Translations under genes and position numbers: made by a program | The notes under the pieces: model-generated | The model's database searches: none | Told to the model about the DNA's origin: nothing | Seen by the model: only the letters and a program-made list of their open reading frames with translations | Source of the DNA: Siphonodentalium dalli | Lineage: Eukaryota > Mollusca > Scaphopoda > Gadilida > Siphonodentaliidae | NCBI GenBank assembly: GCA_032622095.1 | Contig: CP136066.1 | Location: forward strand, 56,138,609-56,202,608 | Reading direction: 5' to 3' | Length of the DNA stretch: 64,000 nucleotides | Shown here: positions 4,177 to 63,051 of the stretch, piece by piece | Layout of the letters: every line of letters starts with the position of its first letter | Numbering within the stretch: position 1 is the stretch's first letter

Positions 4177-4248
4177 GCATTTTTACAAGCTGCTAGTAAC
4201 ACTATAGACAAAGAGAATAATGCCAACTGGGAGGTCATCAATAAAAAG
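4177..4248 (+). CDS. Adhesion GPCR exon 1 of window (GAIN subdomain A helix)
   Basis: Encodes 24 residues beginning AFLQAASNTIDKENN and ending NWEVINKK, in phase 0 at both ends. The pattern 'LL..A.N.(L/I)D..N...W' is the characteristic helix of GAIN subdomain A in adhesion GPCRs. The acceptor is a pyrimidine-rich tract ending tatcgtttcag; the donor is AAAAAG|gtattt. It joins in phase to the exon at 5606 to read NKK-DKNVASVMKF, the next GAIN helix. Exons further 5' (signal peptide, other ectodomain modules, first GAIN helices) are not visible in 1-4176 and presumably lie upstream of the window. Confidence 0.75.
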
Positions 4249-4586
4249 GTATTTCAATAGTCAGTTGTCGTCAGTATAAATACCAGCAGTGACTGTATAT
4301 TATATATCACGCAACTGGTGTATATAACACAATACTAGCACGAAGTTGAAATGTATCCAGCCTGTCAAATGTAAAGACTTCGTTCGGTAACTGGTTAATA
4401 GCGTTACATTATTTATTTTAAAAAAAATATATATATATACCTTACCGATAATTATTGACGTTGACAAAGACATGTATATGTACCTGTTGAAGTTGGAGTG
4501 TCTATCCTCAATTTCTCACATGCATGTGCTCTAACATACCATACCAATACTTAGTGAATTGGCTTTGGCCAAGGGTGCGGTATATG

Positions 4587-5410
4587 TACCAGTTCTGATT
4601 AAAATCAGTACTCAATTTTCGCTCCACTTACTGAGTCTGACGAAATTGGGTGGGGTTCTATTCTTGCCAGCAGGAATTACGTAATTGCCAGCCAATCGCA
4701 ATGTCATAAGTAAAGCGATGTAATCAATCAGGCGATAGTCGCATGGAATCCCCAAGACTATGGGAATTCCTTCAGTCAGCGCAAATCCAGTAAACCCCGC
4801 CCAATAGCTATAGTGTGAGAACTTTTCCGCCGCATGGCTAATTTCACAGTGTTTACAAAATCAGAGTTTACAGAAACACACGTAACACTGAAAAGCGTAT
4901 ATACAGAGTCCAGAATCGACAAATATTATCTAATATGTCCAATATAATTGAATATTATTAAGAAGTTCAACATTTAGTACCAAATAATTTAGAAGTCGCG
5001 ATGTCGTAATTAATTAATTAATTTCCCGCATATGGTGTTAATTTCGAAGTGAAACAAAGAAAATATTGTTTTGTTTCGATTCATAAATGCATTAAAAGTG
5101 ATTGATCGCAGTTAAAATAATGTCACAAGGCGCAGAAGATATTCTTAGAGAATACGTTGCATCAATTCTCACGGGAACTGGCATAAAGAGAAAGTGGTTC
5201 GGAAACGAAATCGAAAGTACATTATGTCGATCAAAGCTATTTTAAAGACAGATGTGGACGGTGACGTCTTACTGCAGGGGTTGCCTGTGGAAGTTACTTA
5301 TAGCGACGGTAATGCAACAAATAGCTGATTTCGTCAGACTCAGTACGTGCAGCGTAAACTTGAGTATGATTTTAATCAGAACTGTATATGTACCAGCTGA
5401 AGTATATACT
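4587..5410. mobile_element. Foldback element about 0.8 kb in intron 1
   Basis: About 70 bp at the left (tctgattaaaatcagtactc ... ctgagtctgacgaaat, 4592-4645) is repeated in inverse orientation at 5325-5395 (atttcgtcagactcagta ... gattttaatcagaactg). A 41-codon open frame inside (5120-5245) matches no family I recognise. Non-autonomous DNA transposon candidate. Confidence 0.55.
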
Positions 5411-5605
5411 CATTTTTCACATGCGTGTGCGTCCAATGCCAATTTGCGTGCGTGAAGATCACAATTGAGTTAATTAAAACAGTCACATGCATCAATCACC
5501 GTTGGCTAAAATAGCGAATCAAAACACAAGGTCGTGTCCACATATCGAAATCGTTGGATGCCACTGCAGTTAGCATATTACGTTCTTTTTCCCATGTATA
5601 CACAG

Positions 5606-5714
5606 GACAAAAACGTTGCCTCTGTGATGAAATTTGTGGAGCGATTTGGAAGACTAGTTAGTAAGAGAACAACTACCGAGGATGGAGTCCTAACAATCGT
5701 CACACCAAACATAG
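5606..5714 (+). CDS. Adhesion GPCR exon 2 (GAIN subdomain A, VEXFG..VTPNI segment)
   Basis: 36 codons plus one base, from DKNVASVMKFVERFGRLV to VLTIVTPNI. Family hallmarks are the helix 'V...VE.FG.L(V/L)' and the strand 'V.TPNI'. The acceptor is ctttttcccatgtatacacag; the donor ATAG|gtaaat leaves one base (G). Joined to TT of the exon at 6681, it makes GTT (Val), giving TPNI-V-LQV, the usual adhesion GPCR sequence at this point. An upstream in-frame extension exists in the genomic sequence, but the pyrimidine tract and phase support the start given here. Confidence 0.85.
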
Positions 5715-6680
5715 GTAAATACACTACACCCATGTAATTAGTTTTATGTGATCGGCTTCCATTTGAAAATGTGTAAATAAGATGGAGATGGTAATGCGTT
5801 TGGCACAATGGTCTTCGTGCTAAGTGTATACACATGCACCCTACATAATATGCACTAGACTAGCCAGCCATAATAACCGAGATATACCTACCCTTGAACA
5901 AGCCATTTTATATCCAGATATATATGCAAAACAACGCCGCATTTTACTAACTTCATCACCACAAAGCATACATGTATGCCTCGACAAGAGTACTGCTCAT
6001 GGTGATTCACCATACTAAATGTGGTAATTACACAGGTAAATGTTGATTGATTGATTGATTTATTTATTGCACAAGTCACATAACAGTGAAACAAGCAAAA
6101 CGTATATACACTATGTACACAAATTCGGATATCACATTCATCATTGTTCATATACACATGCATGTTTATATATACAGCAGTAATTAAATTAGATTACACA
6201 ATAATAGGCAATAAACTTAACAAGTATGATAATTACATGTGATCACCCTTAACAATAAATGATTTCGCTCATATAGAATAAGACACCTTCTTAAAGGCAC
6301 ACCTTAGGAATATGCATAGTCTTTTTATGAGGCTTATATTTTGAAGAGATAGGAGACTATGGAATTTCTCTCTCGTAGGGTTCTTCCAAAAGTATTCAGG
6401 GATATATTGTTTTCTGATTTCATCCAAATGACTGCATATAACAGATATACTTGTCATATAGAACACGTGTAGGGTCAGTTTAAATGGAGAATACAACTGT
6501 GCACATGTACATGACGCATCAAAAATGCACACATGAGCAGATGACAGTATTGTATATGTTCAATATTAACCTGGCCACCACTGAATAAACCACAAACTAG
6601 CACCGACTTGGTATCACATAGATAATGCTTGGAAATATCAACAATACATTTTACAATTCTAACAATATTTCACGATGCAG
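5715..6680. other. Intron 2, nothing recognised
   Basis: AT-rich intron with a short TTGA tetranucleotide run at 6043-6062. No inverted-repeat element, exon or RNA gene seen. Confidence 0.5.
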
Positions 6681-6818
6681 TTCTCCAAGTAAAACGGACA
6701 AAGGCAGACACGATCCAGTTTCCTGAATCGCCACAGAATGGATCTCTTCCAAGATGGACCGAAAGTGAAGCCGGTTCACTGCGAATAGAGAAGTCATCTC
6801 TTGATAAAATATATGGAA
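6681..6818 (+). CDS. Adhesion GPCR exon 3 (GAIN A/B boundary, IxFP motif)
   Basis: Two bases complete the Val codon, followed by LQVKRTKADTIQFPES, then PRWTESEAGSLRIEKSSL, ending KIYG plus one base. The 'I.FP' strand followed by 'W......(S/I)L.I.K..L' is standard GAIN sequence entering subdomain B. The acceptor is tttcacgatgcag; the donor is GGAA|gtgagt. The single leftover base A is completed by AT of the exon at 16280 (AAT, Asn). The 138-nt exon has no internal stop. Confidence 0.88.
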
Positions 6819-6890
6819 GTGAGTGCAAAAACCTGTTACCATAGCAATTGTCCTGGTGCAGTACTATGCAATACATAGAGGATACCTATG

Positions 6891-7032
6891 TTTTTGAGTG
6901 AATGCCATAATTAGTGCATGAGTGACTAGCAGTGGAAATATCAATTTTCAATGAGAGACCACAGGTCGCGAGTTGAAAATTTATATTTCCACTGCTTGTC
7001 ACGAATAAAATAATATGGGATTCACTCAAAAC
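6891..7032. mobile_element. Foldback MITE, 140 bp
   Basis: The ends ttttgagtgaat / attcactcaaaa are complementary, and the arms stay complementary through agcagtggaaatat(c/a)aattttca. The central loop is gagaccacaggtcgc. Too short to code; a hairpin remnant of a DNA transposon is the likeliest reading. Confidence 0.6.
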
Positions 7033-8694
7033 ACCATCGGTGTTCTCTTTGTGAGATGCTTTAACAATGTCGATAATTATTAATTTTAATGCTTACAGTT
7101 GCTAAAGTATGCATCATTTGCACTTAAAATAGCACAACAATTAAACAATAGACGGACCGATTAGCTGATGGGTAGCACACCGAGTTCAAGTGATGACGTC
7201 ATGACGTCATTCAGTAAGCTATAGTTCAGCTGATTTTACCGGAAGTAAGCGACAGTGACTATATAATTTTTGAATAAAATTTTATCATTACGCTCGGTCT
7301 AGATACTAAATACGATATTTACGTTGCGGCATTTATTATTATATCTTTTCGGAAGGTGGATGATTCTTGAAATTCAATCACGAATCGTTTTAATATGAAA
7401 TTCACTGAGCGCATACATGTATGTAGCATGCGCAAAAGACATGTGGTTCGAACAGCAACCGTTATTGGACATACGTCATTGTAGATCCATCAACCATTGT
7501 TATTATATGATCATAATCTTTCTTCTAAAAGTCCCATACTAAATGATAGGGAAAGAAGTTGATAAGTATAGGTTATAACCCGCTTGGTTAGCTGTACAGG
7601 AAGTATAGACCATGGCGCGTTTAGCGCCGCGGTCTATATTTCTTGTACAGATACCCAAGCGGGTTATGACATATTTATAAATAGATTCACATCCGAAGGC
7701 AAACAGAATTGAGCCACATTATATACGACCATTACCTATCAATTACCATTCAATCACAATTTGATTGAATGGTTTGTGGCGTTACATTTTCCTGTTGAAC
7801 AATTAGTCAAATGCTCGTTGACAATCGGATCACTTGCGTCCGCATTATTTACCCTCGAGGGTAACATTGTCTCAGTTATTGACCGCTCAGCTATTATATT
7901 ACCAGTAAACATAGAACTACGAAGAACTCAACGTGCAGAGACACTCTCACAGCTCTCTAACAATTTTCGAAAACACTGTTTTTATAAACCCCACTGTATC
8001 ATAACAACCGCGAACTGTGGTGTTTGCTAATTTGCATAATTGTGTGTTTTTTTAGTTGCAATTAAAGCAAACTATGTATAAACGGTGTTATCGCGGACAC
8101 AAATCCGTTATAATGTGTAATGTTCCTATTGGACCTTTTTATATCAATAATAAAGACCGTGGGATAAATAGATAAACCTTATTATGCAGTTGGTGTGTGC
8201 TGCATGCAATCGCACATACGATGTACATACGTTACAAATACGTTTATGTACTTTAGTTCAAATAGCCACTCTTTACTGTTTGTCAATTGACTATTTCTTT
8301 TCTTCAATACATTCCTCAGACTTCAGAGAAAACCCGTATGTTGCGTAACAATCTGTGACATATGTCAATTTCTTTTTGCACTACTACAACGTGTTAGTTT
8401 CACATTTTAGCAATCTGGAAATGAACACGTCTGTCGGGTCTTCACGGCCATTTGAAACGAAACCAAACATTTCGCTGCATGGCTACTCAACTTCGAAATT
8501 GCTTTACTCCTGTTTCCGTGAACCGATTTCCACCATGCAGCCAGCAAACTGACCGGAGAATAGCTGCGCAAACGACGGGTCTGTTAATTGATCCAGATTA
8601 TGAATGTTTTTATTTTCTAAATAGCGATGATTCCAACATAAAATTTACTTTTCGATCTGGATTAAAGAATATATGCGCGCATGTATGCCCGCTG
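7033..8694. other. Intron 3, 5' part
   Basis: Apart from the hairpin at 7572-7669 there is no feature I can support. A palindromic tgatgacgtcatgacgtca stretch lies near 7190-7208 (overlapping CRE-like octamers TGACGTCA); function unknown. Confidence 0.4.
7572..7669. mobile_element. Hairpin MITE, about 98 bp
   Basis: Left arm gttataacccgcttgg ... tatagacc and right arm ggtctata ... ccaagcgggttatgac pair over about 45 bp, with a short GC-rich centre (atggcgcgtttagcgccgc). Confidence 0.65.
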
Positions 8695-9690
8695 GTAGGA
8701 TTCCCCTAAATTTGGGAATATGCATTGTCGATGAGGGTGGGCTAGGTTCGGAGGCTCGTTTTTGACGATAACTGCGAGCACAGACTAAAGTGATATATCA
8801 AAATGTAAGTCCAGGTTTGGAGTATCGGAAACCAGTGGCACTTTCCGCAAGAATGTATTATAAGTGGCAGAAAACTGTCTTGGAATATAGCCTTTGGCAT
8901 TCGTACGCAAACAACGCGAAACCACATTTCACCCCAAAAAATAACTTAGTGACAGATGACCACGTGTCCCGACTACAATTCCATTTGAAAACACTTTAAC
9001 GTTTTTCACATGCAATACCCATACAGCCGAATGCACCAAACCCACAAAACACGTGGAGTCGGAAGCCATTTTATCGATTTATTCGTTATCCGCAGCCAAA
9101 GTGCAAAGGTCAACTGCGGCGAGTGCAGATACCGGTATATATGGAAGACCATAATTGTCACTTTTAAAAGCTATTTGCGCCATATGAATATGCATTGCTC
9201 AAATGGATGTGCGACAAGTAAGACGTCCTTTCTGAACGTGATTCCGGTAATAACTATATTATATTGCAGTGACTCCGTGCACAAACAACGTCTCCACCAC
9301 CACCACCACCACCAACAACAACAACCACCATACAACAACACAGTACAGTTTGGAATCTCGAATTACGTTCCCGTTTGTTAGAACCCCATTGGCATTAGAT
9401 CATAATTTACGTAACGGAATGTAAAAAAAATGAGTTTTACTGTGTATCCATTACCCAATACTATACGACACAATATATTTGCATAAATATTAATAAAGGA
9501 GCAGTACGCTACAAAACAATACAATATAATAATACTAATAAATAAAACTCATTTCTGTTTTGTTTGTCTATCGGGCTTTGTTTATGTAGCTTTTTATTCC
9601 GAATACCCAATAATCCGAAGGTCTCATACTCCGAAGGTCCGATACTACGAATATCCGGTATATATTCTGCAAGATCCGAACGCCTCCTGA
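8695..9690 (+). repeat. Dispersed repeat copy A, about 1 kb
   Basis: The whole stretch is the reverse complement, with modest divergence, of 14765-15757. Shared blocks include the end ggattcccctaaatttggga, cacgtggagtcggaa and attgctcaaatg. It contains (CAC)n/(CAA)n at 9294-9325. Both copies retain a similar short open frame (WHSYANNAKPHF), more likely shared ancestry than proof of coding. Family unknown. Confidence 0.75.
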
Positions 9691-10516
9691 GAAAGATGAC
9701 ATTATAATTACACCAAGAGGCGTAATTGCAATGCATATTTGTGGTACAATTATGCTTTAAATATGGCCATTTGTTATTAGCATCTTTTGGATTAGTATAG
9801 TATCAGACTCAGGACTGTAAATTTGTGCCATTTTGTGGTTATCACAGGCGTCTACTTGTAGTTCAATCTGGTACTCGGTGCGGGGTCCAGAGAGTTTTCA
9901 GATAAATATTTAAGAATATTTCAGCACACATATCGCTGAAAAACAATTTGTGTAAGAACACCCATTGTCAGTGTTTGGCACAAATTTATTTGCCAAATTG
10001 CTGTTTGCCGATTTAGCAAATTTCTTAAATCAACCCATTGCGAATAATTGCCATTATTATGAATTTATTATCATTTAAATTTCTTCTAATGCAAGGCGAG
10101 TGTGTCTGTTTTTACATACACAGGGACATATCAAAGCCAGTTTTCATACTGCTTACCGATGTGGGCACCCAAACTGCAGGTGCCAAAAAAAATATTCAGG
10201 TCCCAATTCATATCATAACAAAACATTTATATACCGGTACCAGTATATTGACATAAAAACATATTATACAAAAAGTTGGTTGGAATCATATTGTAAAGCA
10301 TGTTTGGCTTTCATCTGTGAAAACTTTAAATAGTTTGAGTTCAGATTTGTTACCATTCAGCTACTTCCGTATTTCAATCAAATTCAAGTGAAATTACACA
10401 ATACAGTGCAGGAACAGACAATTTGATCAATTCAACATGGTTATTATGTGGAATATCATAATACCAAATTAATAATTAACATAAGAGATTAGTACTAATA
10501 ATAATTACTAACTTAA
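9691..10516. other. Intron 3, unremarkable stretch
   Basis: AT-rich intronic sequence with no exon, RNA gene or inverted-repeat element recognised. Confidence 0.45.
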
Positions 10517-10960
10517 AGGTACTCAATCCGATCAGAGGGTCCTATATTATTATTTTATTGGCTTTGGGGGTGAAAAATAATTGATTTGAGTCGAGGAACA
10601 TACCAATCAACACTCAAGGTGATTATCGATACTTGAAGTTTTGTCATTTCTATTCTTTCTGTCCCAGAACATGGCGTCAAAAGGATGTTCTCGGTCAAAA
10701 TTGCTCTATTATTACCACTGGATTTTAAAGTTATCCATCCTTGTCTGTTTGAATAGTGTTTCTGGTGTACACATCTCGAGCAAATTACGAAGTTATGGGC
10801 AATTATTAGTACTCATCTCGGGGAAAATAAAAGATTTCAAAAATCAATATCTAATAACCCTGAGCTTTGTGTGATGGGTTCCTTGACTTGAATCAAATAC
10901 GTTTTACCCACAAAGCCAAAGAAATGGTAATATAGGAACCTCTGATCGGATTGAGTACCT
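10517..10960. mobile_element. TTAA-flanked MITE, 444 bp
   Basis: Terminal inverted repeats AGGTACTCAATCCGATCAGA (left) and its complement (right) extend imperfectly to about 85 bp per side and are flanked by TTAA at 10513-10516 and 10961-10964. TTAA duplications occur with piggyBac and Kolobok superfamilies; the AGG-type terminus fits Kolobok better. No transposase inside. Confidence 0.8.
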
Positions 10961-13760: not shown

Positions 13761-13764
13761 TTAA

Positions 13765-16279: not shown

Positions 16280-16340
16280 ATGAAACAGTTATCTTCTTCA
16301 GTGCAGTTTTCTATAGCAACTTGGAAATCATCATCCCAAA
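16280..16340 (+). CDS. Adhesion GPCR exon 4 (GAIN subdomain B core strand)
   Basis: Two bases (AT) plus 19 codons plus two bases: ETVIFFSAVFYSNLEIIIPK. It matches the GAIN-B hydrophobic strand and following helix, 'V.VV.VLYKNL..(L/I)LP'. The acceptor is caatatattctag; the donor CCAAA|gtaagt is near-consensus. The trailing AA is completed by T of the exon at 22770 (AAT, Asn). It is small and isolated by introns of 9.5 and 6.4 kb, so gene predictors could easily miss it. Confidence 0.85.
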
Positions 16341-17550: not shown

Positions 17551-18110
17551 TCTAGATGATAGGATTTTGCAGTGTTCATGTTCAGAATTTCAAATTTTCT
17601 CCCACTGGTTATGAGGGGTCCTGATCCCTCCTTGGTGGCCAGTCAAAAACTTCTAATTAATTAAACAAAATTGAGGCCTGAAAATTTGCCTGGAGTTACA
17701 TATTTAGATGCTAGGATTTTGCAGTGTTCGGGTTCAGATTTCAAAATTTTCTCCCACTGGTTATGAGGGGTCCTCATCCCTTCTTGGTGGCCAGTCAAAA
17801 AACTGCTAATTAACTAAACAAAATCGAGGCATGAATGTGCCTGGAGTACATATTTAGATGCTAAGATTTTGTAATTTTCAGATTCAGATTTCAAAAGTTT
17901 CTCCCACTGGGCTGCTGAGGGGTTCCTGGTTACTCCCCGGTGGCCACTTAAAATCTACTGAACAGCTTTAAAAATCGACGCCCGAATTTTCCTGCAGTTA
18001 GACATCTAGATGCTAGGATGATTTTGCCGTTTTCAGGTTCAGATTTCAAAATATTCTCCCACTGGGTCCTCTTCCATCCTCGGTAATCAGTCAATCAAGG
18101 CTGTGTAGTG
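17551..18110. repeat. Tandem repeat, four units of about 150 bp
   Basis: The block ctaggattttgcagtgttc recurs at about 17560, 17712, 17862 and 18013. In each unit it is followed by ttctcccactgg, a gagg-tcct segment and (g)gtggcca(gtca). Units have diverged by roughly 15-25 percent by eye. Confidence 0.75.
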
Positions 18111-19619
18111 CCAATTCGGGAAATTGCAAGTCAAGGGGAGTTGCAGTTGGATTTACACAAACTTTGGAGTTTAGCCTGGTAGATGGGGAGGTGCAGTTGG
18201 AAATTCCAAAGGTGACACCCCAACGAAGACCCTCTAGCCGCGTCCCTGGATAAAGTACAGTTAATAGAGAGTGTGCGATACGCAAAACACTCTACATATG
18301 GGGAGACCCCACTACTTTGGTTAAACTTAGCACCATATTGTTTACAACATACCGATACAGCGCTCGCTAATTCTCGCCACACAATATTTCGGTGTTGAAT
18401 GGGTCCCCGTGAAGAACTTTCCCCAAAAATAGCCAGGGTATTGAGTGTTTGGCTTATCGCACAGCATTTATACTCTTTGCTTGTTGTATATAATAAAAAC
18501 ATGCTCGGTTCACACAGCGTGTGTTCTGTGGGTAATATCGCATTCAAACTATCATTATACTATACTATTAGTATATTTTTCAGGAAATTCATAATTTTGT
18601 AACGTGTATTTCTAAAGTATAACCTATAACCGAGTCCATCCCTGCCTTTAAGTTGACACTCAAAAACCACCAGCAATCCGGATTTTGTTTGTTCAGATGC
18701 ATGATTACAGCATAATTTATTTCACAAACTGTTGATCAGTGCACTGTGTAGGAAATATTACATCGGAATTCATTCTATCGCCGGTTTGTGATGGTTCTTG
18801 ATTGATTCGTTAGGGTTCCTTGTCATTAAAAACAATCATTTTCGGGACAAAATCACGCATAAGTATAGATAACTTAAATACATTAAACATTCCCGAACGA
18901 ACGGAGGCCGCATAAGTGCCGTTTTACCGAAATCTGAACTCTAGATCACAATTAACTCGGATATATAGCGTGCTAACGTATAATTATCAACATGCAATCA
19001 CTGAAAATCAAACCATGTAAACGTAATTCCTTTGTTTGTTGTTACATATCGACAGTGAAACGCATTCTGATGACGCACACTGCATGAGTCAAAAGTTTAA
19101 ACCTGTGTTTTGGAGTATTAGCATCGTAACTTATGAGTGTTCCGGTTCTATTTCAAGGTAATAACAGCTGTTACGATTCTTTACAGGGTATTTATTCGAA
19201 CGATTTCTACGCTTTGGGCCGAGTATATATTTGCGTATCAAACGTTTTAAACCAGATAATGACAGTAGCGTTTTTTATCTACATAACCCAACAGGTAACT
19301 GGAGACTAATACTACTGCCCACATAAATAATATGTATAAGGTGGGTCGCCCACCACCCCATCCCGCCACCCATAGTATTTTATGCGACGCAGTCGCCCTT
19401 AGATTTGTCCACAGAGGAAGCAGACTGAACCCACCTCCCATAGTATCTTATGCATAGTTTGGCCTGATACAGATCTAAAGGCGGCCCATTTGTGCGCTTT
19501 GCGTTCATTTTAATCATTTAAACAGTTAGATTTAAAACAAAACAAAAATTGTAATTGTTGTTTTTAAATTATTGTTCCTTGCTCAAATTAAGAAACTTTT
19601 TTTTTTATATTTTTTAATT

Positions 19620-20254: not shown

Positions 20255-21469
20255 GGACTTTGCTAACCCAAATTTCCCCAAATGTTATGGAATCAAAATA
20301 AAGGTTTATGATCACTTTTATTAGTAATCACAGTAACCAAACCCATGAATGCAACATTTTAAGAGTATAATTCAACAAACACAAAGTCCATGTCTAAGAA
20401 AATATATGGCAATGTGTACTGAACACTGAAGAATGATGAACAATGTGTACTGAACACTGTGAAGAATGATGAACAATGTGTACTGAACACTGTGAAGAAT
20501 GATGAACAATGTGTACTGAACACTGTGAAGAATGATGAACAATGTGTACTGAACACTGTGAATAATGATGAACAATGTGTACTGAACACTGTGAAGAATG
20601 ATGAACAATGTGTACTGAACACTGTGAATAATGATGAACAATGTGTACTGAACACTGTGAATAATGATGAACAATGTGTACTGAACACTGTGAAGAATGA
20701 TGAACAATGTGTACTGAACACTGTGAACAATGATGAACAATGTGTACTGAACACTGTGGAGAATGATGAACAATGTGTACTGAACACTGTGAACAATGAT
20801 GAACAATAAATTAATATTAATATTTATCAAGCATTCTTTGGTAAAATTACTAAGAACCAATTGTTTACAAATTATTGAGTAACTTGCCTGTTGTGAGGTG
20901 ACAGTTAAGTGCTAATATCTGTGGACAGTGTTGTGTTGTGAATCTCTTGACAAAAGAACTGTGTAATCCCCAATCTAGGGGTACCCCATAGCCCATAAAC
21001 TAGGTCACCAATGAGGATATAATATTCCCATGGGTCAGCACCTGCTGGTCATAATCCCAGCTGGCTTGAGTGAACATTAACTTAACCCATCAAATTCAGT
21101 TCCCAAATAGCTTTACTGAGCAATGAAATCTACCATGTGTAAACAACTGCTTCCAAGCCAAAAATCTGAATAACACTAAAGAAATGTGAGTATATCTTTA
21201 TTGTTCTTCATTCTTCAGGGTGTTCAGTACACATACCAAATTCTTTTTCTTAGATATGGTCTTTGAATTTGTTGAATTTGGGTTCGAAAAAATAGATTTA
21301 AAAAACTTCTATAAATTTCACATTTTGAATTTCTAACATAATCTACCATGAATTATACTCTTAAAGTGTTGCATCCATGGGTTTGGTTACTGTGATTACT
21401 AATAAAAGTGAACTTAAACCTTTATTTTGGACTCCATTAAATTTGGGAAAAATTGGGTTAGCAAAGTCC
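20255..21469. mobile_element. TTAA-flanked element with internal 33-bp minisatellite, 1215 bp
   Basis: Ends GGACTTTGCTAACCCAA and TTGGGTTAGCAAAGTCC are perfect inverses, flanked by TTAA at 20251-20254 and 21470-21473. The inverted arms continue for about 190 bp (ggtttggttactgtgattac and complement). The 33-bp minisatellite starts exactly at the inner end of the left arm, and a single related piece (ttcttcagggtgttcagtac) sits at the inner end of the right arm. No transposase. Confidence 0.85.
20411..20807. repeat. 33-bp minisatellite, 12 copies
   Basis: Unit: aatgtgtactgaacactgtg followed by aagaatgatgaac. Copies vary at one position (aagaat / aataat / aacaat / gagaat); the first copy lacks two bases. 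The period is a multiple of three, so several frames stay open on both strands, giving repeats such as NDEQCVLNTVK that are not evidence of a gene. Confidence 0.95.
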
Positions 21470-22769: not shown

Positions 22770-22896
22770 TGCTAGTGTTCCCTCCGGCATGGATGACGAT
22801 GTCAGCGTAAACTCTAAAGTATTAGCCCTTTCAGTGACACCAAATATTACGAGGAAACTTGATCCACCATTCTCCATTCGTTTTCCACATTTGCAG
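22770..22896 (+). CDS. Adhesion GPCR exon 5 (GAIN subdomain B beta strands)
   Basis: One base completes Asn, then ASVPSGMDDDVSVNSKVLAL, SVTPNITRKLDPPFSIRF and PHLQ. 'VNS.V(I/L).(L/V)SV.P' followed by 'L..P..I.F.HL' is the GAIN-B signature immediately before the GPS. NIT is a potential N-glycosylation site in what would be the extracellular fragment. The acceptor is tatgtgtgatttgcag; the donor TTGCAG|gtgaag ends in phase 0, matching the exon at 29068. Confidence 0.92.
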
Positions 22897-24770: not shown

Positions 24771-26660
24771 TAAACACATGGCTTTATTTATATAGTAAGA
24801 TAGGCGATCGTGGTATAAACATTTGGCTTTATTTATATAGTAAGATAGGCGATCGTGGTAAAAACACATGGCTTTATTTATATAGTAAGATAGGCGATCG
24901 TGGTAAAAACACATGGCTTTATTTATATAGTAAGATAGGCGATCGTGGTATAAACACATGGCTTTATTTATATAGTAAGATAGGCGATCGTGGTATAAAC
25001 ACATGGCTTTATTTATATAGTAAGATAGGCGATCGTGGTATAAACACATGGCTTTATTTATATAGTAAGATAGGCGATCGTGGTAAAAACACATGGCTTT
25101 ATTTATATAGTAAGATAGGCGATCGTGGTATAAACACATGGCTTTATTTATATAGTAAGATAGGCGATCGTGGTATAAACACATGGCTTTATTTATATAG
25201 TAAGATAGGCGATCGTGGTATAAACACATGGCTTTATTTATATAGTAAGATAGGCGATCGTGGTATAAACACATGGCTTTATTTATATAGTAAGAAAGGC
25301 GATCGTGGTATAAACACATGGCTTTATTTATATAGTAAGATAGGCGATCGTGGTATAAACACATGGCTTTATTTATATAGTAAGATAGGCGATCGTGGTA
25401 AAAACACATGGCTTTATTTATATAGTAAGATAGGCGATCGTGGTATAAACACATGGCTTTATTTATATAGTAAGATAGGCGATCGTGGTATAAACACATG
25501 GCTTTATTTATATAGTAAGATAGGCGATCGTGGTATAAACACATGGCTTTATTTATATAGTAAGATAGGCTATCGTGGTATAAACACATGGCTTTATTTA
25601 TATAGTAAGATAGGCGATCGTGGTATAAACACATGGCTTTATTTATATAGTAAGATAGGCGATCGTGGTATAAACACATGGCTTTATTTATATAGTAAGA
25701 TAGGCGATCGTGGTATAAACACATGGCTTTATTTATATAGTAAGATAGGCGATCGTGGTATAAACACATGGCTTTATTTATATAGTAAGATAGACGATCG
25801 TGGTATAAACACATGGCTTTATTGATATAGTAAGATAGGCGATCGTGGTATAAACACATGGCTTTATTTATATAGTAAGATAGGCGATCGTGGTATAAAC
25901 ACATGGCTTTATTTATATAGTAAGATAGGCGATCGTGGTATAAACACATGGCTTTATTTATATAGTAAGATAGGCGATCGTGGTATAAACACATGGCTTT
26001 ATTTATATAGTAAGATAGGCGATCGTGGTATAAACACATGGCTTTATTTATATAGTAAGATAGGCGATCGTGGTATAAACACATGGCTTTATTTATATAG
26101 TAAGATAGGCGATCGTGCTATAAACACATGGCTTTATTTATATAGTAAGATAGGCGATCGTGGTATAAACACATGGCTTTATTTATATAGTAAGATAGGC
26201 GATCGTGGTATAAACACATGGCTTTATTTATATAGTAAGATAGGCGATCGTGGTATAAACACATTGCTTTATTTATATAGTAAGATAGGCGATCGTGGTA
26301 TAAACACATGGCTTTATTTATATAGTAAGATAGGCGATCGTGGTATAAACACATGGCTTTATTTATATAGTAAGATAGGCGATCGTGGTATAAACACATG
26401 GCTTTATTTATATAGTAAGATAGGCGATCGTGGTATAAACACATGGCTTTATTTATATAGTAAGATAGGCGATCGTGGTATAAACACATTGCTTTATTTA
26501 TATAGTAAGATAGGCGATCGTGGTATAAACACTTGGCTTTATTTATATAGTAAGATAGGCGATCGTGGTATAAACACATGGCTTTATTTATATAGTAAGA
26601 TAGGCGATCGTGGTATAAACACATGGCTTTATTTATATAGTAAGATAGGCGATCGTGGTA
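24771..26660. repeat. 45-bp satellite, 42 near-identical copies
   Basis: Unit: taaacacatggctttattta then tatagtaagataggcgatcg then tggta. Exactly 42 units fit 24771-26660. Only scattered substitutions occur, mostly t/a at the unit boundary plus a few singletons such as aagaaagg, ctatcg, gtgcta and cattgc. The period is 15 codons, so long frames stay open on the minus strand (24723-26084 and 26118-26624); these are by-products. It lies in intron 5 of the receptor gene. Confidence 0.97.
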
Positions 26661-26699
26661 TAAACTAGTATACGACGACGACGAACGTTTGCCTTATTA

Positions 26700-29067: not shown

Positions 29068-29114
29068 AAAGACCACATTGATGCGACGTGTGTTTATTGG
29101 AAATTTGACAACAG
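29068..29114 (+). CDS. Adhesion GPCR exon 6 (first half of GPS motif)
   Basis: 47-nt mini-exon: KDHIDATCVYWKFDN plus two bases (AG). 'C(V)(F/Y)W(K/D)F' is the start of the GPS, with the first conserved Cys and Trp. The acceptor is gcgttatgttcacag; the donor is ACAACAG|gtgaat. The trailing AG is completed by C of the exon at 32358 (AGC, Ser), giving KFDN-S-EVGGTWSTEGC. It is shorter than any reasonable open-reading-frame cut-off and was found by searching for the missing GPS half in the right phase. Confidence 0.92.
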
Positions 29115-32357: not shown

Positions 32358-32478
32358 CGAAGTCGGTGGTACATGGTCAACAGAGGGATGTGTACTAGTT
32401 CGTTCCACCGACAGCGAAACACATTGCGCATGCGATCACTTCACCAACTTTGCCATACTGATGAGCCCGAGTGAAACG
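32358..32478 (+). CDS. Adhesion GPCR exon 7 (second half of GPS, cleavage site, tethered agonist)
   Basis: One base plus 40 codons. EVGGTWSTEGCVLV holds the second GPS Trp and Cys; ETHCACDHFTNFAILM holds the CxC pair and the cleavage tripeptide. In this family, autoproteolysis occurs between residues 2 and 3 of His-Leu-Thr/Ser; here the tripeptide is His-Phe-Thr. The predicted new N-terminus TNFAILMSPSE is a typical tethered agonist (Stachel). The acceptor is gatttctttactttacttag; the donor is GAAACG|gtgagc, phase 0. Confidence 0.95.
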
Positions 32479-32883: not shown

Positions 32884-32987
32884 GAGGGTATTCACAAGGA
32901 GATACTCAGCTACTTGTCAGCTGTTGGGTGTGGAATATCTATATTCGGGCTGGTGATGACAATAGCTGTCCATGCCGTTCTGTTGAA
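32884..32987 (+). CDS. Adhesion GPCR exon 8 (TM1)
   Basis: 34 codons plus two bases. HKEILSYLSAVGCGIS is followed by IFGLVMTIAVHAVLL, the typical B2 TM1 ('L..(I/L)SY(V/L)GC.(I/L)S...L'). The acceptor is catttgttcgcag; the donor is TTGAA|gtgagt. AA plus the G opening the next exon gives Lys. It lies only 405 bp after the GPS exon. Confidence 0.95.
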
Positions 32988-35782: not shown

Positions 35783-35885
35783 GTTCCTCAAAAGAGATAA
35801 GACAGTCTTGCATTTGAACCTGTGTGGATCCTTGCTTGTGGCATACACTGTTTTCTTGGCTGGTGTTACTGAGGTCGAAAACAAG
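35783..35885 (+). CDS. Adhesion GPCR exon 9 (ICL1 and TM2)
   Basis: One base plus 34 codons: (K)FLKRDKTVLHLNLCGSLL, then VAYTVFLAGVTEVENK. 'R.....(I/L)HLNLC.SLL......LAG' is the canonical B2 ICL1/TM2. The acceptor is ctccattttaaatttcag; the donor AACAAG|gtacca ends in phase 0. The strong match and clean phase link to TM1 and TM3. Confidence 0.94.
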
Positions 35886-36617: not shown

Positions 36618-36636
36618 GTTTTCGTTCTAAGGAACG

Positions 36637-37728
36637 ACTGGAGACATTAGCATTGTCGTGACTGGAGACTTTAACATTGTCGTGACTGGATGCTTTAGCA
36701 TTGTCGTGACTGGAGAGTTTAACATTGTCGTGACTGGAGACTTTAACATTATCGTGACTGGAGACTTCAACATTGTCGTGACTGGAGAGTTTAACATTGT
36801 CGTAAATGGAGTCTTTAACATTGTCGTGACTGGAGACTTTAACATTGTCGTGACTGGAGACTTTAACATTGTCGGGACTGGAGGCATTAACATTATCGTG
36901 ACTGGAGACTTTAACATTATCGTGACTGGAGACTTTAACATTATCGTGACTGGAGACTTTAACATTGTCATGACTGGAGACTTTAACATTGTCATGACTG
37001 GAGACTTTAACATTGTCGTGACTGGATGCTTTAGCATTGTCGTGACTGGAGACTTTAACATTGTGGTGACTGGAGACTTTAACATTATCGTGACTGGAGA
37101 CTTTAACATTGTCATGACTGGAGACTTTAACATTATCATGACTGGAGACTTTAACATTGTCATGACTGGAGACTTTAACATTGTCATGACTGGAGACTTT
37201 AACATTGTCATGACTGGAGACTTTAACATTGTCATGACTGGAGACTTTAACATTGTCATGACTGGAGAGTTTAACATTGTCGTGACTGGAGACTTTAACA
37301 TTGTCGTGACTGGAGTCTTTAACATTATCGTGACTGGAGGCATTAACAGTATCGTGACTGGAGACTTTAACATTGTCATGACTGGATGCTTTAGCATTGT
37401 CGTGACTGGAGACTTTAACATTGTCGTGACTGGAGACTTTAACATTTTCGTGACTGGAGACTTTAACATTGTCGTGACTGGAGTCTTTAACATTGTCGTG
37501 ACTGGATGCTTTAGCATTGTCGTGACTGGAGACTTTAACATTGTCGTGACTGGAGACTTTAACATTGTCATGACTGGAGACTTTAACATTATCGTGACTG
37601 GAGTCTTTAACATTGTCATGACTGGAGACTTTAACATTGTCGTGACTGGAGACTTTAACATTATCGTGACTGGAGTCTTTAACATTGTCGTGACTGGAAA
37701 GTTTAACATATGACTTTAACATTGTCAC
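36637..37728. repeat. 24-bp minisatellite, about 45 copies with variant classes
   Basis: Unit: actggagactttaacattgt then cgtg. Common variants are gtcatg or atcgtg at the end, gagagttt, gagtcttt, gaggcatt and the ggatgctttagc form. Six consecutive gtcatg-type units near 37129-37280 show local homogenisation. The period is a multiple of three, so long frames stay open on both strands (such as VVTGDFNI and SSHDNVKV repeats); these are not genes. Located in intron 9. Confidence 0.95.
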
Positions 37729-38109: not shown

Positions 38110-38260
38110 ACAACCTGCATCATTGTTGCAGCCTTGCTTCATTTCTTCTATTTGGTGGCGTTTTTCTTCATGCTGGCCGAAGGAGTCGACTTAGCAATAA
38201 GCATTTTATACGTTTTTGCTACACGAGATCGACTCAGATACTGGCTCTGTCTTGGTTGGG
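38110..38260 (+). CDS. Adhesion GPCR exon 10 (TM3, ICL2, start of TM4)
   Basis: 50 codons plus one base: TTCIIVAALLHFFYLVAF is TM3, with the conserved Cys that is disulfide-bonded to extracellular loop 2 in this family. FFMLAEGVDL matches the 'W(M/L)L.EG(V/L).L' motif, with Phe where Trp is usual. YVFATRDRLRYWLCLGWG spans ICL2 into TM4. The acceptor is gaattgtttactttcag; the donor is GGTTGGG|gtatgt. The leftover G is completed by GT of the next exon. Confidence 0.95.
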
Positions 38261-39409: not shown

Positions 39410-39479
39410 GTGCACCGGTGGTGATTGTCGCAGTGTCGCTGGGCGCCACTCAACTTGAAGGATATGGTAATGACAAATA
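39410..39479 (+). CDS. Adhesion GPCR exon 11 (TM4 and ECL2 start)
   Basis: Two bases, 22 codons, two bases: (G)APVVIVAVSLGATQLEGYGNDK plus TA. 'GWG.P..IV..S(L/I)' is TM4 and 'YG....CWL' is the expected ECL2. The donor used here is AAATA|gtaagt, which gives TAC (Tyr) with the next exon and the correct GYGNDKYCWLS. A second possible donor 13 nt upstream (TATG|gtaatg) would break the frame. The acceptor is ttgtttatccag. Confidence 0.93.
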
Positions 39480-47992: not shown

Positions 47993-48059
47993 CTGTTGGC
48001 TCTCGATATCCAATCATCTCATTTGGGCATTCGTGGTTCCTGCTTTGTGTATAATCACG
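47993..48059 (+). CDS. Adhesion GPCR exon 12 (ECL2 Cys and TM5 start)
   Basis: One base plus 22 codons: (Y)CWLSISNHLIWAFVVPAL then CIIT. 'CWLS....(I)WAF..P' contains the ECL2 Cys expected to pair with the TM3 Cys, followed by the first half of TM5. The acceptor is atactttgtttatttcag; the donor is ATCACG|gtgcgt, phase 0. It is separated from exon 11 by an 8.5 kb intron holding three mobile elements. Confidence 0.93.
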
Positions 48060-53095: not shown

Positions 53096-53181
53096 GTTAA
53101 TACCATAATTATAATTTTGGTACTTCGAGCGATCTATTCCTCTTCTGCAATGCTGAACCGAAACAAGAAGGACAAAGCCAA
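53096..53181 (+). CDS. Adhesion GPCR exon 13 (rest of TM5 and ICL3)
   Basis: 28 codons plus two bases. VNTIIIILVLRAIYSSS is the second half of TM5 and MLNRNKKDKA a lysine-rich ICL3. It follows TM5 of exon 12 in phase (PALCIIT-VNTIIIILV). The acceptor is ttgttgtttccag; the donor GCCAA|gtaagt is near-consensus. AA plus G of the next exon makes Lys (DKAK-SGVRS). Confidence 0.92.
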
Positions 53182-55464: not shown

Positions 55465-57024
55465 TCAAGTGTGTCCACGAATAAGTAAACCAGCATATTT
55501 ATATTGTTCAATGAAAGTCATTGATTTATGAGATACTAGAATTTAGTTTTCCATGGTTTTCAATGAATAATACCTTAAGTGTACCAAAGAATGAGTAAAC
55601 CAGAATATATTGTTTTCAACTAAAGTCACTGATATATACCTGAAGCAAAATAATTATGTAGAGCATCAAGAGAATGAGTATAATTATATTCTTCAATGAA
55701 AGTCATTGATTCATGAAACACTAGAATTCATTTTTCCATCATTTTTATTGAATAATGCCTCAAGTGTGTCCATGAATGAGCAAACAAGAAAATAGAATTC
55801 AGTTCTCCGTGATTTTCCTTGAATAATACCATGAATGAGTAAACCAGAATATAATTTTCAATGAAATCCACTGATTGATACCTTAAGCAAAAACAATTAG
55901 TATTTTGTATTTCCTGTATCTTGATGATGTTATATGCATCAGTTGTCCAAATGAATGAGTGAACCAGCCTACATTATTTAATTAATGTCATTGATTTATA
56001 CCCCAAGCAAACCAATTACACAATGCTTCAAGTGAATGAGTAAACCAGCATAATTACATTCTTCAATGTAAGTCATTGAGTTATGAGAAATTTAGTTTTA
56101 GTTTTTCCATAATTGTCATTGAATAATGCCTCAAGTGTGCCGAATGAGCAAACCAGAAAATATTTTTTCAAGTAAAGTCACTGATGTATATACCTCAATT
56201 ATATACTGCCTCAAGTGAATGAATAAACCAGCATAATTATATTCTTCAATGAAAGTCATTGATTTATGAGACACTATACGTTAGTGTTCTATGATGTTCA
56301 TTGAATAATGACTCAAGTGTGCCAAAGAATGAGCAAACAAGAAAATATTTTTTCAATTAAAGTCACTGATGTATACCTCAAGCAAAATAATTATATAGTG
56401 CATCAAGTGAATGAGAAAACCAGAATAATTATATTCTTCAATGAATGTCATTGATTAATAAAACACTAGAATTCAGTTGTCCATTGAATAATGCCCCAAG
56501 TGCGTCCATGAATGAGTAAACCAACATATTTTTATTGTTCAATGAAAGTCATTGATTTTCGAGAAACTAGAATTCATTTTCCATGATTTTCCTTGAATAG
56601 TACCTCAAGTGTGCACACTTAAGCAATAACAATTAGTATATTGTATGTCCTGTCTCTTGATGATGTTATATGCCTCATTTTCCCAATTGAATGAGTAAAC
56701 CAGCCTACATTATTTAATTAATGTCATTGTATTTATACCTCAAGCAAATCAATTACACAATGCCTCAAGTGAATGAGTAGACCAGCATAATTATATTCTT
56801 CAATGAAAGTCATTGATTTATGAGACACTAGAATTTAGTTTTCCATGATTTTCATTGAATAATGCCTCAAGTGTACCAAATAATCAGTAAAACGGCAACA
56901 TTATATTCTTCAATGAAAGTTATTGATTTAGGAGCCACCAGAATTTAGTTTTCCATGATTTTCTTTGAATAATGCCTCAAGTGTACCAAAGAATGAGTAA
57001 ACCAGATAAAAAAAATTCAATTAA

Positions 57025-57666
57025 AGGGGTACTGTACCCCAATTTCAATAAATTCCCGGTTACAATAGCGATCTAATATCAATATTATATTTTAAAATAA
57101 CTAATTTGAGTTGACGATGTTTACTGAAAACGTTCCGGTTAACAGGCTATCATAAAAGTAAAATTTAATTATTTAATATAAATTAATTTATGGCTGGAGT
57201 CATAAAATGGAGAATTATGCCATTACGAGTTACCGTTCTTGAAATCTTATCCGTTGAGTGTCTTTTATCGACGGCCGTTCGCGAACATTATTGAGTTGCA
57301 AACAAAACATGTTACCTGCAAAATGAAGGCCCGCTATAACCGATTCAGGAAAAAAGGAGAAAGAAACAAGTCATAAAGCATAAAGTATTTTTATAGGGAG
57401 TGAGATTGTTCGATGGAAGAGATTGAAGGTATTGAAGCTGTGAGCAATGAACTTCCGGTTCTTCCTGCGACCTGCGTCTTCTCCGGTGAAGGTCAAAAAC
57501 ATGGCGCGTAGTTTGAAATCGTAATATTTTTGTTTCCAAGATCAATATTTTCTTCGCTAAATTAGGTCTATACGAAACTCATATAACACGAACGCTATCT
57601 AACTTGAAAGTTATTTCAATGGGAGTAAATAAAAAAAAATCGCCTATCTCTGTGTACAGTACCCCT
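57025..57666. mobile_element. TTAA-flanked MITE, 642 bp, inside the tandem array
   Basis: Ends AGGGGTACTGTAC and GTACAGTACCCCT are perfect inverses; TTAA lies at 57021-57024 and 57667-57670. The array sequence resumes directly (caattaa | aagccactgactta), giving a clean empty-site reading. No transposase seen. Termini resemble those of the 10517 element (AGG(GG)TACT). Confidence 0.88.
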
Positions 57667-58060
57667 TTAAAGCCACTGACTTATACCTCAAGCAAAATAA
57701 TTATATAGTGCCTCAAGAGAATGAGTAAACAGCATAATTATATTCTTAAATGAAAGTCATCGATTTATGAAACACTAGAATTCATTTTCCCATGATTTTC
57801 ATTGAATAATGCCTCAAGTTTGTCCATGGATGAGAAAACCAGCATCATTATCTTCAATGAAAGTCATTGATTTATGAAACACCAGAATTCAGTTTTCCAT
57901 CATATTCGTTGAATAATGCCTAAAGTGTGCACATGATGAGTAAAATAGAATATATTTTTCAATGAAAGCCACGGATTTATACCTCAAGCAAAACAATTAG
58001 TTATTATATGTCCTGTCTTGATAATGTTATATGCATCAGTTATCCAAAATGAATTATTGC

Positions 58061-59780
58061 TTCAACGTTTCTAAAATTTTACCTTACATTTTTCTGTTTT
58101 AAATTATACCATAAACATTCAAAGCGATAGATTGTAGTGGAATATTCTGAAAATTACTCAAAATCACCAATGTTAATATGACTATCCGTATCACTGAACT
58201 GTGTCATAAATGCCAATTTAATACAACTATGTATGTGTATATATACCAGGTTAAAGTGATGTGAAACCCTCTGTGGATATTTGGTGGGAATAGAGAATAC
58301 TCTTGCTCTCAAAGTGCTACACGTATTCTCATAAATTATATATCCAAATGGTATCACAAAACATGATTCTTACACATGGAATAAAAGTAGTGGCTCACCT
58401 TGTCAGGTCGGAGCGATTATCATTTTGTTTATCGCGTTTAATCCGTCCCACCAATAGAGAAGTATTTATTTATTTACAACTCTGAATACTTCAGACGTTA
58501 AAGCATGAAACATGAACATCATAAACATAAAAAATAAAAGACAACAATTGTGTTTTACATAGAGATGTATCAATCAATCAATCAATCAAGTTTATCATAT
58601 CTTCATGAAGATACAGATGTTTTAAATATATGTCCAGGTGCTCCTCTGTTCTGGTGCTATATACTGGCTAATAATTTTCAGTTTAAAAGAATTGATGTTA
58701 TGCATGTATAGCAGCTACATGTGCCCGACACAGCGAGATTTTGAGTTGTTTATGTTAGGCGATTAGTCTGTTCTAAAAAATTAAAGAAATCCTCTGTATC
58801 GGGCAGATATACTCTTGTCAGATGTCAATATTGGAGGATCCTGAAAAGCCATGTGCTACGGACTGCGCTTTCATTTCTCTCAGAAGTAACCATATTTGAC
58901 TGCACACTGTGACCACTATTTTTAAACCACACCATTATATTCCTCATATTATGGGGATGATTATATATAAGTTTGGTGGCAATCGGCGACAAATTGTTTT
59001 TGCCCCTCCCCCTTTTCTGCCCCTGACAACAACGGCGTCACTTTAGAAAATTCTAACCCACGCCATTATCTTTCTCGTAAAAAGTTACCCCTATTAGACC
59101 CCTGTTGTGCCATCTAGGTGGTCCCCTGTGAATTTATATAGAACACAGACAGACAGACAGACATTCGCAAATATAGATATAGATATATATGTGTGTGTGT
59201 GATTTAATTGAATCACGACATGTGTTTCTACCATGTTGTGATTTGTTTAAAGCATATATTCTATACACAAGTAACACTACGTATCATGTATATACTGCCC
59301 AATGCAAAAACTGAGCCCACCAACTGCCAAAGTGAAAGCCCTAACCCATGATATCCCAATAATTGGGAATAGGCCCTTTACGAGGAACACATAATCATGA
59401 CCCCCTATCTATAACTGCCAAACGAAAGTCCCCACCCATGATTGCTCCAATAACTATAGGACCAGTCTGTATCGTAAAAATGATTATCTACCCCAATACC
59501 TCCGGCCCTGTTTGAAAAACGCCCCTGTATGTAAAATACCATAATTTACCTGTCCCAACTGTCATAAGAGAAATAACTCCAGGTGCTCACTAACGAATTC
59601 CCACCCTGTGGTAAAACATGTATAGCATAAGCACATATATATCCACGCATCGAATCCATCTACATACAAGCATAAGATTGAAGTCTGCTTCCACTAAATT
59701 TCCTTGTTGTGGTACATGACTCCGTTGTATAACAACACCACGTCGCATTTTTCTCGTATTATGCGTGCGCTATCATCTAA
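58061..59780. other. Intron 13 with microsatellite-tailed repeat
   Basis: No exon. caatcaatcaatcaatcaag occurs at about 58570. About 58900-59162 reads like a dispersed repeat (aagtttggtggcaatcggcg, then cccctattagacccctgttg) ending in (GACA)n, comparable to 19620-19775. Confidence 0.4.
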
Positions 59781-59972
59781 CACGAGAAAGTCGTTCTCGT
59801 ACCCCACAGCTCCACGTGATCATGTCACGACCTAATAATTATAACACGAGAAAGTCGTTCTCGTACCCCACAGCTCCACGTGATCATGTCACGACCTAAT
59901 AATTATAACACGAGAAAGTCGTTCTCGTACCCCACAGCTCCACGTGATCATGTCACGACCTAATAATTATGT
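59781..59972. repeat. 64-bp tandem triplicate
   Basis: Three almost identical 64-bp units: cacgagaaagtcgttctcgt accccacagctccacgtgat catgtcacgacctaataatt ataa. Each contains a small hairpin (acgagaa agtcg ttctcgt) and a CACGTG E-box-like hexamer with GATC. Confidence 0.93.
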
Positions 59973-60736
59973 CTCCAGCCTCCTCACACTTTCGACCCAG
60001 TAATGTAAATCACACGACAATTGGAATAGTGACGATACTTTGTTTTCCTTCACTTGTTCAACTTGTTAACACGGGACAACAACAACAGAAACGCCTTGAA
60101 GCAACCCCCCCCCAAATGTTCATGAACGTAACTACACGAATTACTCCTCACGCAATATATAACCGGTAAATCACGCAAACAGGAAAGTTTACATGTACAT
60201 GGGTTGCTATTGACATACTTAATCATCATTTACCAAAGGAGAGGTTTCGCGAAGTTATGACTGCGAGGGCGTATGCATGGTGCTCTCTCAGGGTATTATA
60301 GACTGCATTTCTTGAATCAAGCTGTTATGATAATCAAACATACCTTCATGTAAATGTTCCCAAATCGCTCTTAAAATTAGACTAATTTATCCAAAATTTT
60401 CTCTCAGCACTGGATACATGAGATAGGAACTGGTACTATTTTAGAACCACTACTGAATACTTATAACTTATATTAATTGAATATGACGACATATATTAAC
60501 ATTTGAGCTTTTGTCTGATGATATTGCATGTATAATTCTCTCACCGTGTCTTAATATCATATATAGTATGTGCTATACCATGTTTATTTCGCTTATACCA
60601 GTTGTTTCCAGACTTGAGCAATTCAAAATTACGCACATGTGCATTATGAATTAACACTGTCATTATTTCTCAATTCAATGTGAAATCGATATGATACAGG
60701 GCAAGGGAAGTAACTCTATTTTCATAACCAGAATAT
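59973..60736. other. Intron 13, unremarkable
   Basis: No feature recognised before the LINE fragment. Confidence 0.4.
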
Positions 60737-61330
60737 ATGACGGCTGATAGGATTACACTAGGCGAAATTCAGGAAGATAACTCTTTTAACTTTGCTTCAC
60801 GATACAACGGACCACAAACGGATGATCCAGAAGATAAGACCGACATCATGTCGCCATACAGCGCAATAAGCCATTCTTGTGAATAGTATGTCCCAACCCA
60901 GGTGAAGGATAAACTGGCAGCATCCAAAACGAATTTGTCTATGCTTGGTATTAATTTTCGTAGCCTTAATGCTAACTGGGACTCATTTGTAGATCTTGTT
61001 ACCGATTACCATAGCCCTGGACACTCGATTGATATGCTAGCACTGACCGAAATATTTATAATTAACGAAGATTATTCATTACCAGGTTATCACAACCTCA
61101 TAACTAATTTGCGACCTGAGAATGACGATGGACGAGGCGGCGTTGGTATCTTTATAAAGGATATTTTCTCTTTTAAAATTCGACATGATCTGTCTGTATT
61201 TATACCACATGTCATTGAGACCATATTTGCGGAATTGGATGCTGGACGAAAATCAAAATTGTTCATGGTCGGTTATATTTATAGACCCAACACTGCACCG
61301 CGAGCAGACCCACATCACGTATACCCTTAG
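60737..61330 (+). pseudogene. 5' fragment of a CR1/L2-like LINE ORF2 (endonuclease)
   Basis: The frame opens MTADRITLGEIQEDN, has SPYSAISHSCE then a TAG at 60884, and continues YVPTQVKDKLAASKTNL. Endonuclease-domain blocks follow: NFRSLNANWDSFVDLV, DMLALTEIF (catalytic Glu in the LTE motif), LPGYHNL, GRGGVGIFIK, ETIFAEL and VGYIYRP. It ends at 61330, so the rest of the endonuclease and the reverse transcriptase are missing. Unusual, because truncated LINE copies normally keep the 3' end. In intron 13, sense to the receptor gene. Confidence 0.82.
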
Positions 61331-61752
61331 TCTAGTGTGCCCTCAATATAGTTTGTTTCTTTAATTTCCGCTTCGTGTTCAAGTCTGGAACAGCATTTAT
61401 ATAGCATATACTTAAAGATGTATTCGGAGTTATCGTGTAAACACCATTGCTTGATAAGCACCATAATGCATAACACACGATTGCGTTGGGGAAAATAATT
61501 TTTTGTTGATAATTGCTTATAGTAAAACTGTTCAGCGCCACAAAGCCAGTGGCCTTCCCAGAAATAGACTTTATAAAATATATTGGTACCGTATCTAGAG
61601 GTATCGAACCATGAATACATCTTTGAATTCGTCCGCCATCCTTATGTTTATATATCATTCAGGGGCAGCAGGAAGATGACCAACCATGGTCACGCTGCTC
61701 CTGTACAATACATATCATATACCTGTTCATAATTTTGCTGTAGTATCATTAA
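61331..61752. other. Intron 13, short non-coding gap
   Basis: No feature recognised between the LINE fragment and the MITE. Confidence 0.4.
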
Positions 61753-62246
61753 AGGCACGTGAGGCCTTAGTTGTCGAAAATATTCATATTTGTTTCAATC
61801 ACCGTAAACAGAAAAACATTAAAACGCATACAGTTCCGTTCATATATACCATGACCATCACGTAAACAGCATGTTATCATAAAGACCTACTATATTTTAC
61901 CTAAGCAAGAGCCTGATTGTGTTACAGAAGATAGCACAATGCTACTGGCTAATCACACACAAATGGCATAAACGCTCTTTATTAGTTCCATATCAGGAAT
62001 TCACCAACACAGAACGCTCTTTATGTTTATCATCATAATATAAACAAACACCAGAAAAGTAACTTTTTATGCTTTTGTTTACATAACAATGGTCAAACAT
62101 TTGACAATAACGTACTGTTTATGCGATATTTCTTATTTGTATACGGACAAAGTTTGTCTACGTTTTGATGTTCTTTCTGTTTGTGGCGGTTTTTGACGGG
62201 TGGAAATATTTTCACAGGATACCCACCGCGAAGGCCAACCGTACCT
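61753..62246. mobile_element. TTAA-flanked MITE, family X copy 2, 494 bp
   Basis: Ends AGGCACGTGAGGCCTT and AAGGCCAACCGTACCT; TTAA lies at 61749-61752 and 62247-62250. It matches the element at 43535-44056 in the same orientation along its length (aaaatattcatatttgtt, acgctctttatta, tgtttatgc(g/c)at, ggcggtttttgacgg). Confidence 0.85.
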
Positions 62247-62250
62247 TTAA

Positions 62251-62924
62251 ATTTTGTTATTGTACAAATAAAAAATTAATCAATCAATCATATATAACAA
62301 CTATCGATATAGGTATGGCATATATAACATTTTCTTTACGATATAGTTCATAACTAGAGTTATAATAGAGTTATCATATCAACAAAAAACGCGATAATTA
62401 TTGTGGCCTATCTAAATCAACCAAACTTAGTTGGTACACAGTTATTCTCTTTCTGGTAGCACATCTGGTTCTAAGCATTTGGTTTTGGTAGCTTAGAATT
62501 GTCATAAACGGCCACGCAGTTTTCCTCAGTACAAGACCTGAACGCTGAATACGCAAGGCCAAACAAATGAACATTCCGTGTTTTCAGCCACTGAAATTTT
62601 CTTTTAAAAAGCCTCGTGAATACTATTTTGTTTTCTGGAATATGTTTTCCAGCTTAAAAAAAAAATATATATAAATAAATAGCCCCCCTTCTATATTTCA
62701 AAATTTAGACCTAAGAACCTGAGAACACATATGTGATATTATAATTACCAAATCAGTAGAGTGCAATAAAATAAACACGTTGCTTGTTGATGGAGTTACA
62801 AAACGTATGTATGTGTGTATCTGTATTTAGTATGTTTACTGTGTTATGCCTGTGTCCAAATTTATTGTGTAGCAGTCCGCCAGTTATGTGGGATTTAATA
62901 AATTTCAATGATTGCTTTTGACAG
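62251..62924. other. Intron 13, 3' end
   Basis: No feature recognised apart from an AT microsatellite near 62665-62680. Confidence 0.4.
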
Positions 62925-63051
62925 GAGCGGAGTCCGGAGTATATGTGTGTTGATGCCTCTGCTTGGACTGACGTGGGTGCTTGGTGTATTCTCGGTTAAC
63001 GAGGACCTTGTTGTATTTCAGTATTTGTTTGCAATCTTCAACTCCTTGCAG
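62925..63051 (+). CDS. Adhesion GPCR exon 14 (TM6, ECL3, most of TM7)
   Basis: One base plus 42 codons: (K)SGVRSICVLMPLLGLTWVLG is TM6 with the conserved 'GLTW' toggle motif; VFSVNEDLVVFQYLFAIF and NSLQ make ECL3 and the first part of TM7. The acceptor is gattgcttttgacag; the donor TTGCAG|gtgagt ends in phase 0. In relatives the next exon begins GFFIF to finish TM7; no such exon is visible in the last 950 bases. The 'VN...VVFQY(L/M)FA..NSLQ' wording resembles the ADGRD group, but I cannot place the subfamily. Confidence 0.95.

Follow-up and report, generated by a model that had tools for sequence, protein, structure and literature searches.

The window (the whole 64,000-nt stretch analysed, C6:56138609-56202608 in a 2.23-Gb assembly of nine contigs) carries most of a multi-exon adhesion (B2) GPCR gene, in fourteen exons. 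Our preferred reading, to which we give a probability of about 0.8, is that it is one of a family of about 13 ADGRL/E/D-like receptor genes and that, in this copy, the end of the seventh transmembrane helix (TM7) and the tail are out of frame.

Exon chain, domains and receptor class

The chain was rebuilt by combining coding scores with splice borders and motif reading, guided by the two ends and the numbers given in an earlier note on this DNA, and is therefore not wholly independent of it. The exon observation in that note is confirmed. On the plus strand there are 14 exons of 47–151 nt, all with AG/GT borders; their phases agree at all 13 junctions, and together they give 1383 nt, or 461 codons, with no stop. 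Exons occupy 2.35% of the 14-exon span, within the bound of 3 percent put forward earlier.

The GAIN domain is encoded by exon 1 (window coordinates 4177..4248, phase 0 to 0), exon 2 (5606..5714, 0 to 1), exon 3 (6681..6818, 1 to 1), exon 4 (16280..16340, 1 to 2) and exon 5 (22770..22896, 2 to 0); the Pfam GAIN match falls in this part of the joined protein. Exon 6 (29068..29114, 0 to 2) carries the first part of the GPS, and exon 7 (32358..32478, 2 to 0) contains CDHFTNFAILM, with His-Phe-Thr at the cleavage position and then a stretch resembling a tethered agonist; both fall within the Pfam GPS match. Alignment with ADGRL3 places TM1 in exon 8 (32884..32987, 0 to 2), the first intracellular loop and TM2 in exon 9 (35783..35885, 2 to 0), TM3 to the start of TM4 in exon 10 (38110..38260, 0 to 1), TM4 in exon 11 (39410..39479, 1 to 2), the second extracellular loop (CWL) and TM5 in exon 12 (47993..48059, 2 to 0), and the end of TM5 with the third intracellular loop in exon 13 (53096..53181, 0 to 2). 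TM6 and the first half of TM7 lie in exon 14 (62925..63051, 2 to 0), which the Pfam 7tm_2 match supports. The helix names are presumed ones, assigned on the ADGRL3 alignment. Each of the 14 exons is also present in the relative at 57.5 Mb on the same contig.

The acceptor of exon 4 at 16280 was picked to match the 461 codons of the earlier note; an alternative start at 16307 shortens the exon to 34 nt and the chain to 452 codons with the frame preserved, and a start at 16302 was dropped since it breaks the frame. A strong candidate exon at 18037-18211 was likewise dropped, as it starts within a 152-nt tandem array (17553-18065) and is not GAIN-like by eye; exon 22770-22896 was used in its place. 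Other repeats in the window comprise a minisatellite of 42 units of 45 nt (24771-26665) and another of 45 units of 24 nt (36636-37709), each with several reading frames that stay open for hundreds of codons, and a repeat of 12 units of 33 nt (20410-20807). The intron between exons 13 and 14 holds an open frame on the plus strand (60887-61330) that matches Exo_endo_phos at E = 0.0064, below Pfam's cut-off, and that we take to resemble a non-LTR retrotransposon endonuclease.

Open AG..GT segments of 47–151 nt number 8709 on the plus strand of the window and 9298 on the minus strand, so that splice borders and phases alone are weak evidence for a gene; it is homology (Pfam) and conservation in the 57.5-Mb relative that lift the chain above chance. 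A search of the joined protein against Pfam, as the earlier note had proposed, matched all three expected domains, and in the order that it had given for an adhesion (B2) GPCR: GAIN (PF16489; E = 1.7e-13, 50.9 bits, residues 2-150, from profile position 52), GPS (PF01825; E = 3.7e-15, residues 176-219, profile positions 2-45 of 45) and 7tm_2 (PF00002; E = 4.3e-55, 187.1 bits, residues 233-461, profile positions 4-246 of 250). The GPS thus ends directly before TM1. NCBIfam yielded no match.

The best matches among solved structures were ADGRL3, ADGRD1, ADGRL2 and ADGRE5. Over the 7TM region the top score was that of ADGRD1 (GPR133; 156.8 bits), whose GPS region is also alignable, followed by ADGRL3 (155.1 bits), ADGRL2 (140.2 bits) and, lower than ADGRD1 and ADGRL3, ADGRE5 (CD97; 125.5 bits). 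ADGRL3 gave the best match across GAIN to TM7 (215 bits), and both it and ADGRL2 share the GAIN-GPS-7TM order. Because the margin of ADGRD1 over ADGRL3 is less than 2 bits, the gene is not assigned to group D. The subfamily placement sought in the earlier note therefore yields no single group, and on these scores the predicted receptor is ADGRL/E/D-like, with no finer placement. There are also differences from the named receptors: the GPS of ADGRL3 has His-Leu-Thr, whereas the window gene has His-Phe-Thr, and neither a latrophilin N-terminal domain nor the EGF repeats of ADGRE5 were seen in the window gene, whose own N-terminus was not recovered. According to the available part of one study, groups L and E arrange the exons of the 7TM region alike, and genes for adhesion GPCRs consist of numerous coding exons spread across large regions (PMC6667449).

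The gene extends beyond the window on either side; the earlier description of it as complete does not hold. About 7 kb before the window, at window coordinates -7259 to -7047, a 213-nt exon carries the coding sequence for an early portion of GAIN; with this exon, minus its first three codons, the GAIN match rises from 50.9 to 67.1 bits (E = 1.9e-18) and begins at profile position 18. At the other end, the window stops short of the 3' half of TM7 and of the tail. With a GAIN exon upstream and a TM7 exon downstream of the window, the gene must be 75 kb long or more. The stretches conserved with relatives in the 30 kb upstream revealed neither a start exon nor a signal peptide, and the conserved blocks upstream of the added GAIN exon contain no recognisable exon. 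The corresponding exon of the 57.5-Mb relative (C6:57502398-57502571) is 174 nt rather than 213 nt; comparison with two other copies indicates that a deletion took the old acceptor and that a new in-frame acceptor remains.

A family of copies that retain their introns

A protein search of the genome gave at least 92 matches. Counted by hand among the matches listed, about 13 places on C1, C3 and C6, the window gene included, belong to the family, a place being defined by a match to three or more window-gene exons, in most cases with identity above 50%. The weakest of these is C1:204.5 (46–67% identity), and the remaining matches are more distant class B sequences. The nearest copy (C6:57506279-57553317), 1.36 Mb away, has all 14 exons with AG/GT borders and no indel, and a compact copy (C1:72519721-72536744) also has all 14.

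The two C6 copies differ at 69 of 1383 nt and at 38 amino acids (Ks 0.098, Ka 0.038, Ka/Ks 0.39). Over 15,243 aligned intron bases in 19 collinear blocks there are 201 gaps (13.2 per kb) and 10.8% mismatches, and the exons in those blocks (1033 of 1383 exon bases) show 6.0% mismatches and no gaps. At the intron rate about 18 gaps would be predicted in the exons; none is observed in any of the 14. As the introns align between the two C6 copies, the pair arose by duplication of DNA together with its introns and not through a reverse-transcribed copy. Introns are retained in the C1 copy too. The family of about 13 copies has multiplied within this genome.

The genome also contains a large intron-poor class B set: among the 138 7tm_2 matches listed, 62 (counted by hand) span 200 or more of the 250 profile positions in one frame, and many intron-poor 7tm_2 matches lie in open frames of 500–1300 codons (for example L002-L008). 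Pieces of L002, L004 and L008 searched against Pfam gave 7tm_2 in all three and GPS or GAIN in none. We presume that they may be methuselah-like.

The exon completing TM7 and the state of the gene

Exon 14 ends with FAIFNSLQ, midway along TM7; in the 57.5-Mb copy, the exon that follows reads GLFIFVIYTVLNSH. A whole-genome DNA search with a relative's exon as query located the TM7-finishing exon in 10 of the 13 family places, the window gene included; this search did not find it at C1:52.8, C1:150.63 or C1:204.5, and the frame comparison rests on the nine other copies. In all nine the exon is 42 nt long and in frame. That of the window gene (window coordinates 68241-68277, C6:56206849-56206885) lies 5.2 kb past exon 14, retains its acceptor and donor, and is 37 nt long and out of frame. 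The five missing nucleotides are more than a simple homopolymer change. With 5 nt fewer than its counterparts in the nine other copies, the exon shifts the reading frame for the end of TM7 and the tail, and the seven helices do not continue in frame to the tail. The shifted stretch reads GLFCVLHYLEF. The earlier note had held that no exon carries a stop or frameshift and that the gene is expressed on that ground; the first part stands for the 14 exons, while the next exon is frameshifted, alone among 10 copies, and expression is not supported by this argument.

A separate motif search of 5-kb pieces gave no TM7 exon in two of five (C3:296.9 and C3:11.8), and the DNA search found both: the exon at C3:296.9 lies past its piece, and that at C3:11.8 is within its piece, with the motif unmatched. 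Comparison of the window gene and the 57.5-Mb copy with 2.6–2.7 kb of two relatives revealed nothing recognisable as an exon after the TM7 exon.

Changes in the 14 exons were assigned to branches with the C1 copy as outgroup to the two C6 copies. The window gene branch has 10 synonymous and 14 nonsynonymous changes, and the branch of the 57.5-Mb copy 12 and 10 (7 and 16, respectively, were not assignable). Against a neutral nonsynonymous share of 0.77, one-sided tests gave P = 0.03 for the window gene and P = 0.001 for the 57.5-Mb copy; the two branches do not differ (P = 0.56). These counts point to purifying selection on the 14 exons, and the window gene has probably been under constraint over much of the period since the two copies separated; the Ka/Ks of 0.39 likewise fits a gene that worked through much of its history. 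The constraint on the window gene's own branch argues against an old pseudogene. With the 14 exons constrained, the frame loss would have happened recently, be tolerated, or be absent from the animal itself; we favour recent damage. A frameshifted adhesion GPCR has a counterpart in human ADGRE4, in which a deletion shifts and so interrupts the reading frame, as stated in the available part of PMC8584163; the two genes are from different animals.

The short exon may also stem from an assembly error or a polymorphic allele. In that case, or if another exon replaces it, the gene would be intact and expressed. This would agree with the freedom of the 14 exons from stops and indels amid gap-rich introns, and with a nonsynonymous count on the window gene branch below the neutral expectation. 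We nevertheless consider it unlikely, because the 5-nt loss is not of the homopolymer type, affects one of the 10 copies found and leaves acceptor and donor in place, and because, of the five places that a loosely defined motif picked out in about 31 kb following exon 14, none resembles the GLFIFV exon by eye. Tolerance of the frame change, which would leave a functional receptor with an altered tail, could be explained if GLFCVLHYLEF, still hydrophobic, sufficed and the tail were dispensable; the shifted frame stays open for 36 codons after NSLQ if the exon is unspliced onward, and the remainder of the gene is constrained. Set against the preservation of exon length and frame in all nine other copies found, tolerance seems to us quite improbable. 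With 8709 open segments to choose from on the plus strand, a chain with agreeing phases might have been assembled by chance; this reading is refuted by the domain E-values of the joined protein and by the conservation of the exon set in two relatives.

Cleavage, signalling and significance

Adhesion GPCRs have a GAIN domain that hides a tethered agonist and may undergo self-cleavage at the GPS. By analogy with the adhesion GPCR family, a working member of the family described here would be a receptor whose GAIN domain may self-cut at the GPS, and the buried TNFAILM stretch, which in the window gene immediately follows the GPS, would act as a tethered agonist on the 7TM region. The available part of one report gives His-Leu/Ile-Ser/Thr as the typical cleavage tripeptide and does not there call it required (PMC13197933). 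All five family copies read, namely the window gene and four of four relatives (L034, L032 and L030 among them), have His-Phe-Thr at this position, in which His and Thr of the typical tripeptide are kept and the middle residue differs. As this departure is common to the window gene and all four relatives, self-cleavage is uncertain. A more far-reaching proposal, which we regard as very unlikely, is that the recently multiplied His-Phe-Thr family may stay uncleaved and that one copy, with GAIN and helices under selection and a frame-switched TM7 end and tail, is a receptor with changed signalling or a decoy.

The available part of a study of octopus describes octopus-specific class B expansions of adhesion and methuselah-like receptors (PMC6408891). 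Its groups 3 and 4 resemble the window-gene family in their recent lineage-specific multiplication; the octopus copies are co-localised, whereas the present family is spread over three contigs. The receptor is of a well-known, ordinary kind, and each element found has a known parallel, since similar features are reported in the available parts of PMC6667449, PMC6408891 and PMC8584163.

A correct exon reading can miss the state of a gene: here the frame is lost 5 kb past the last exon read, outside the window. The close relatives, with their long introns, form a set suited to tracing how adhesion receptors arise and decay.
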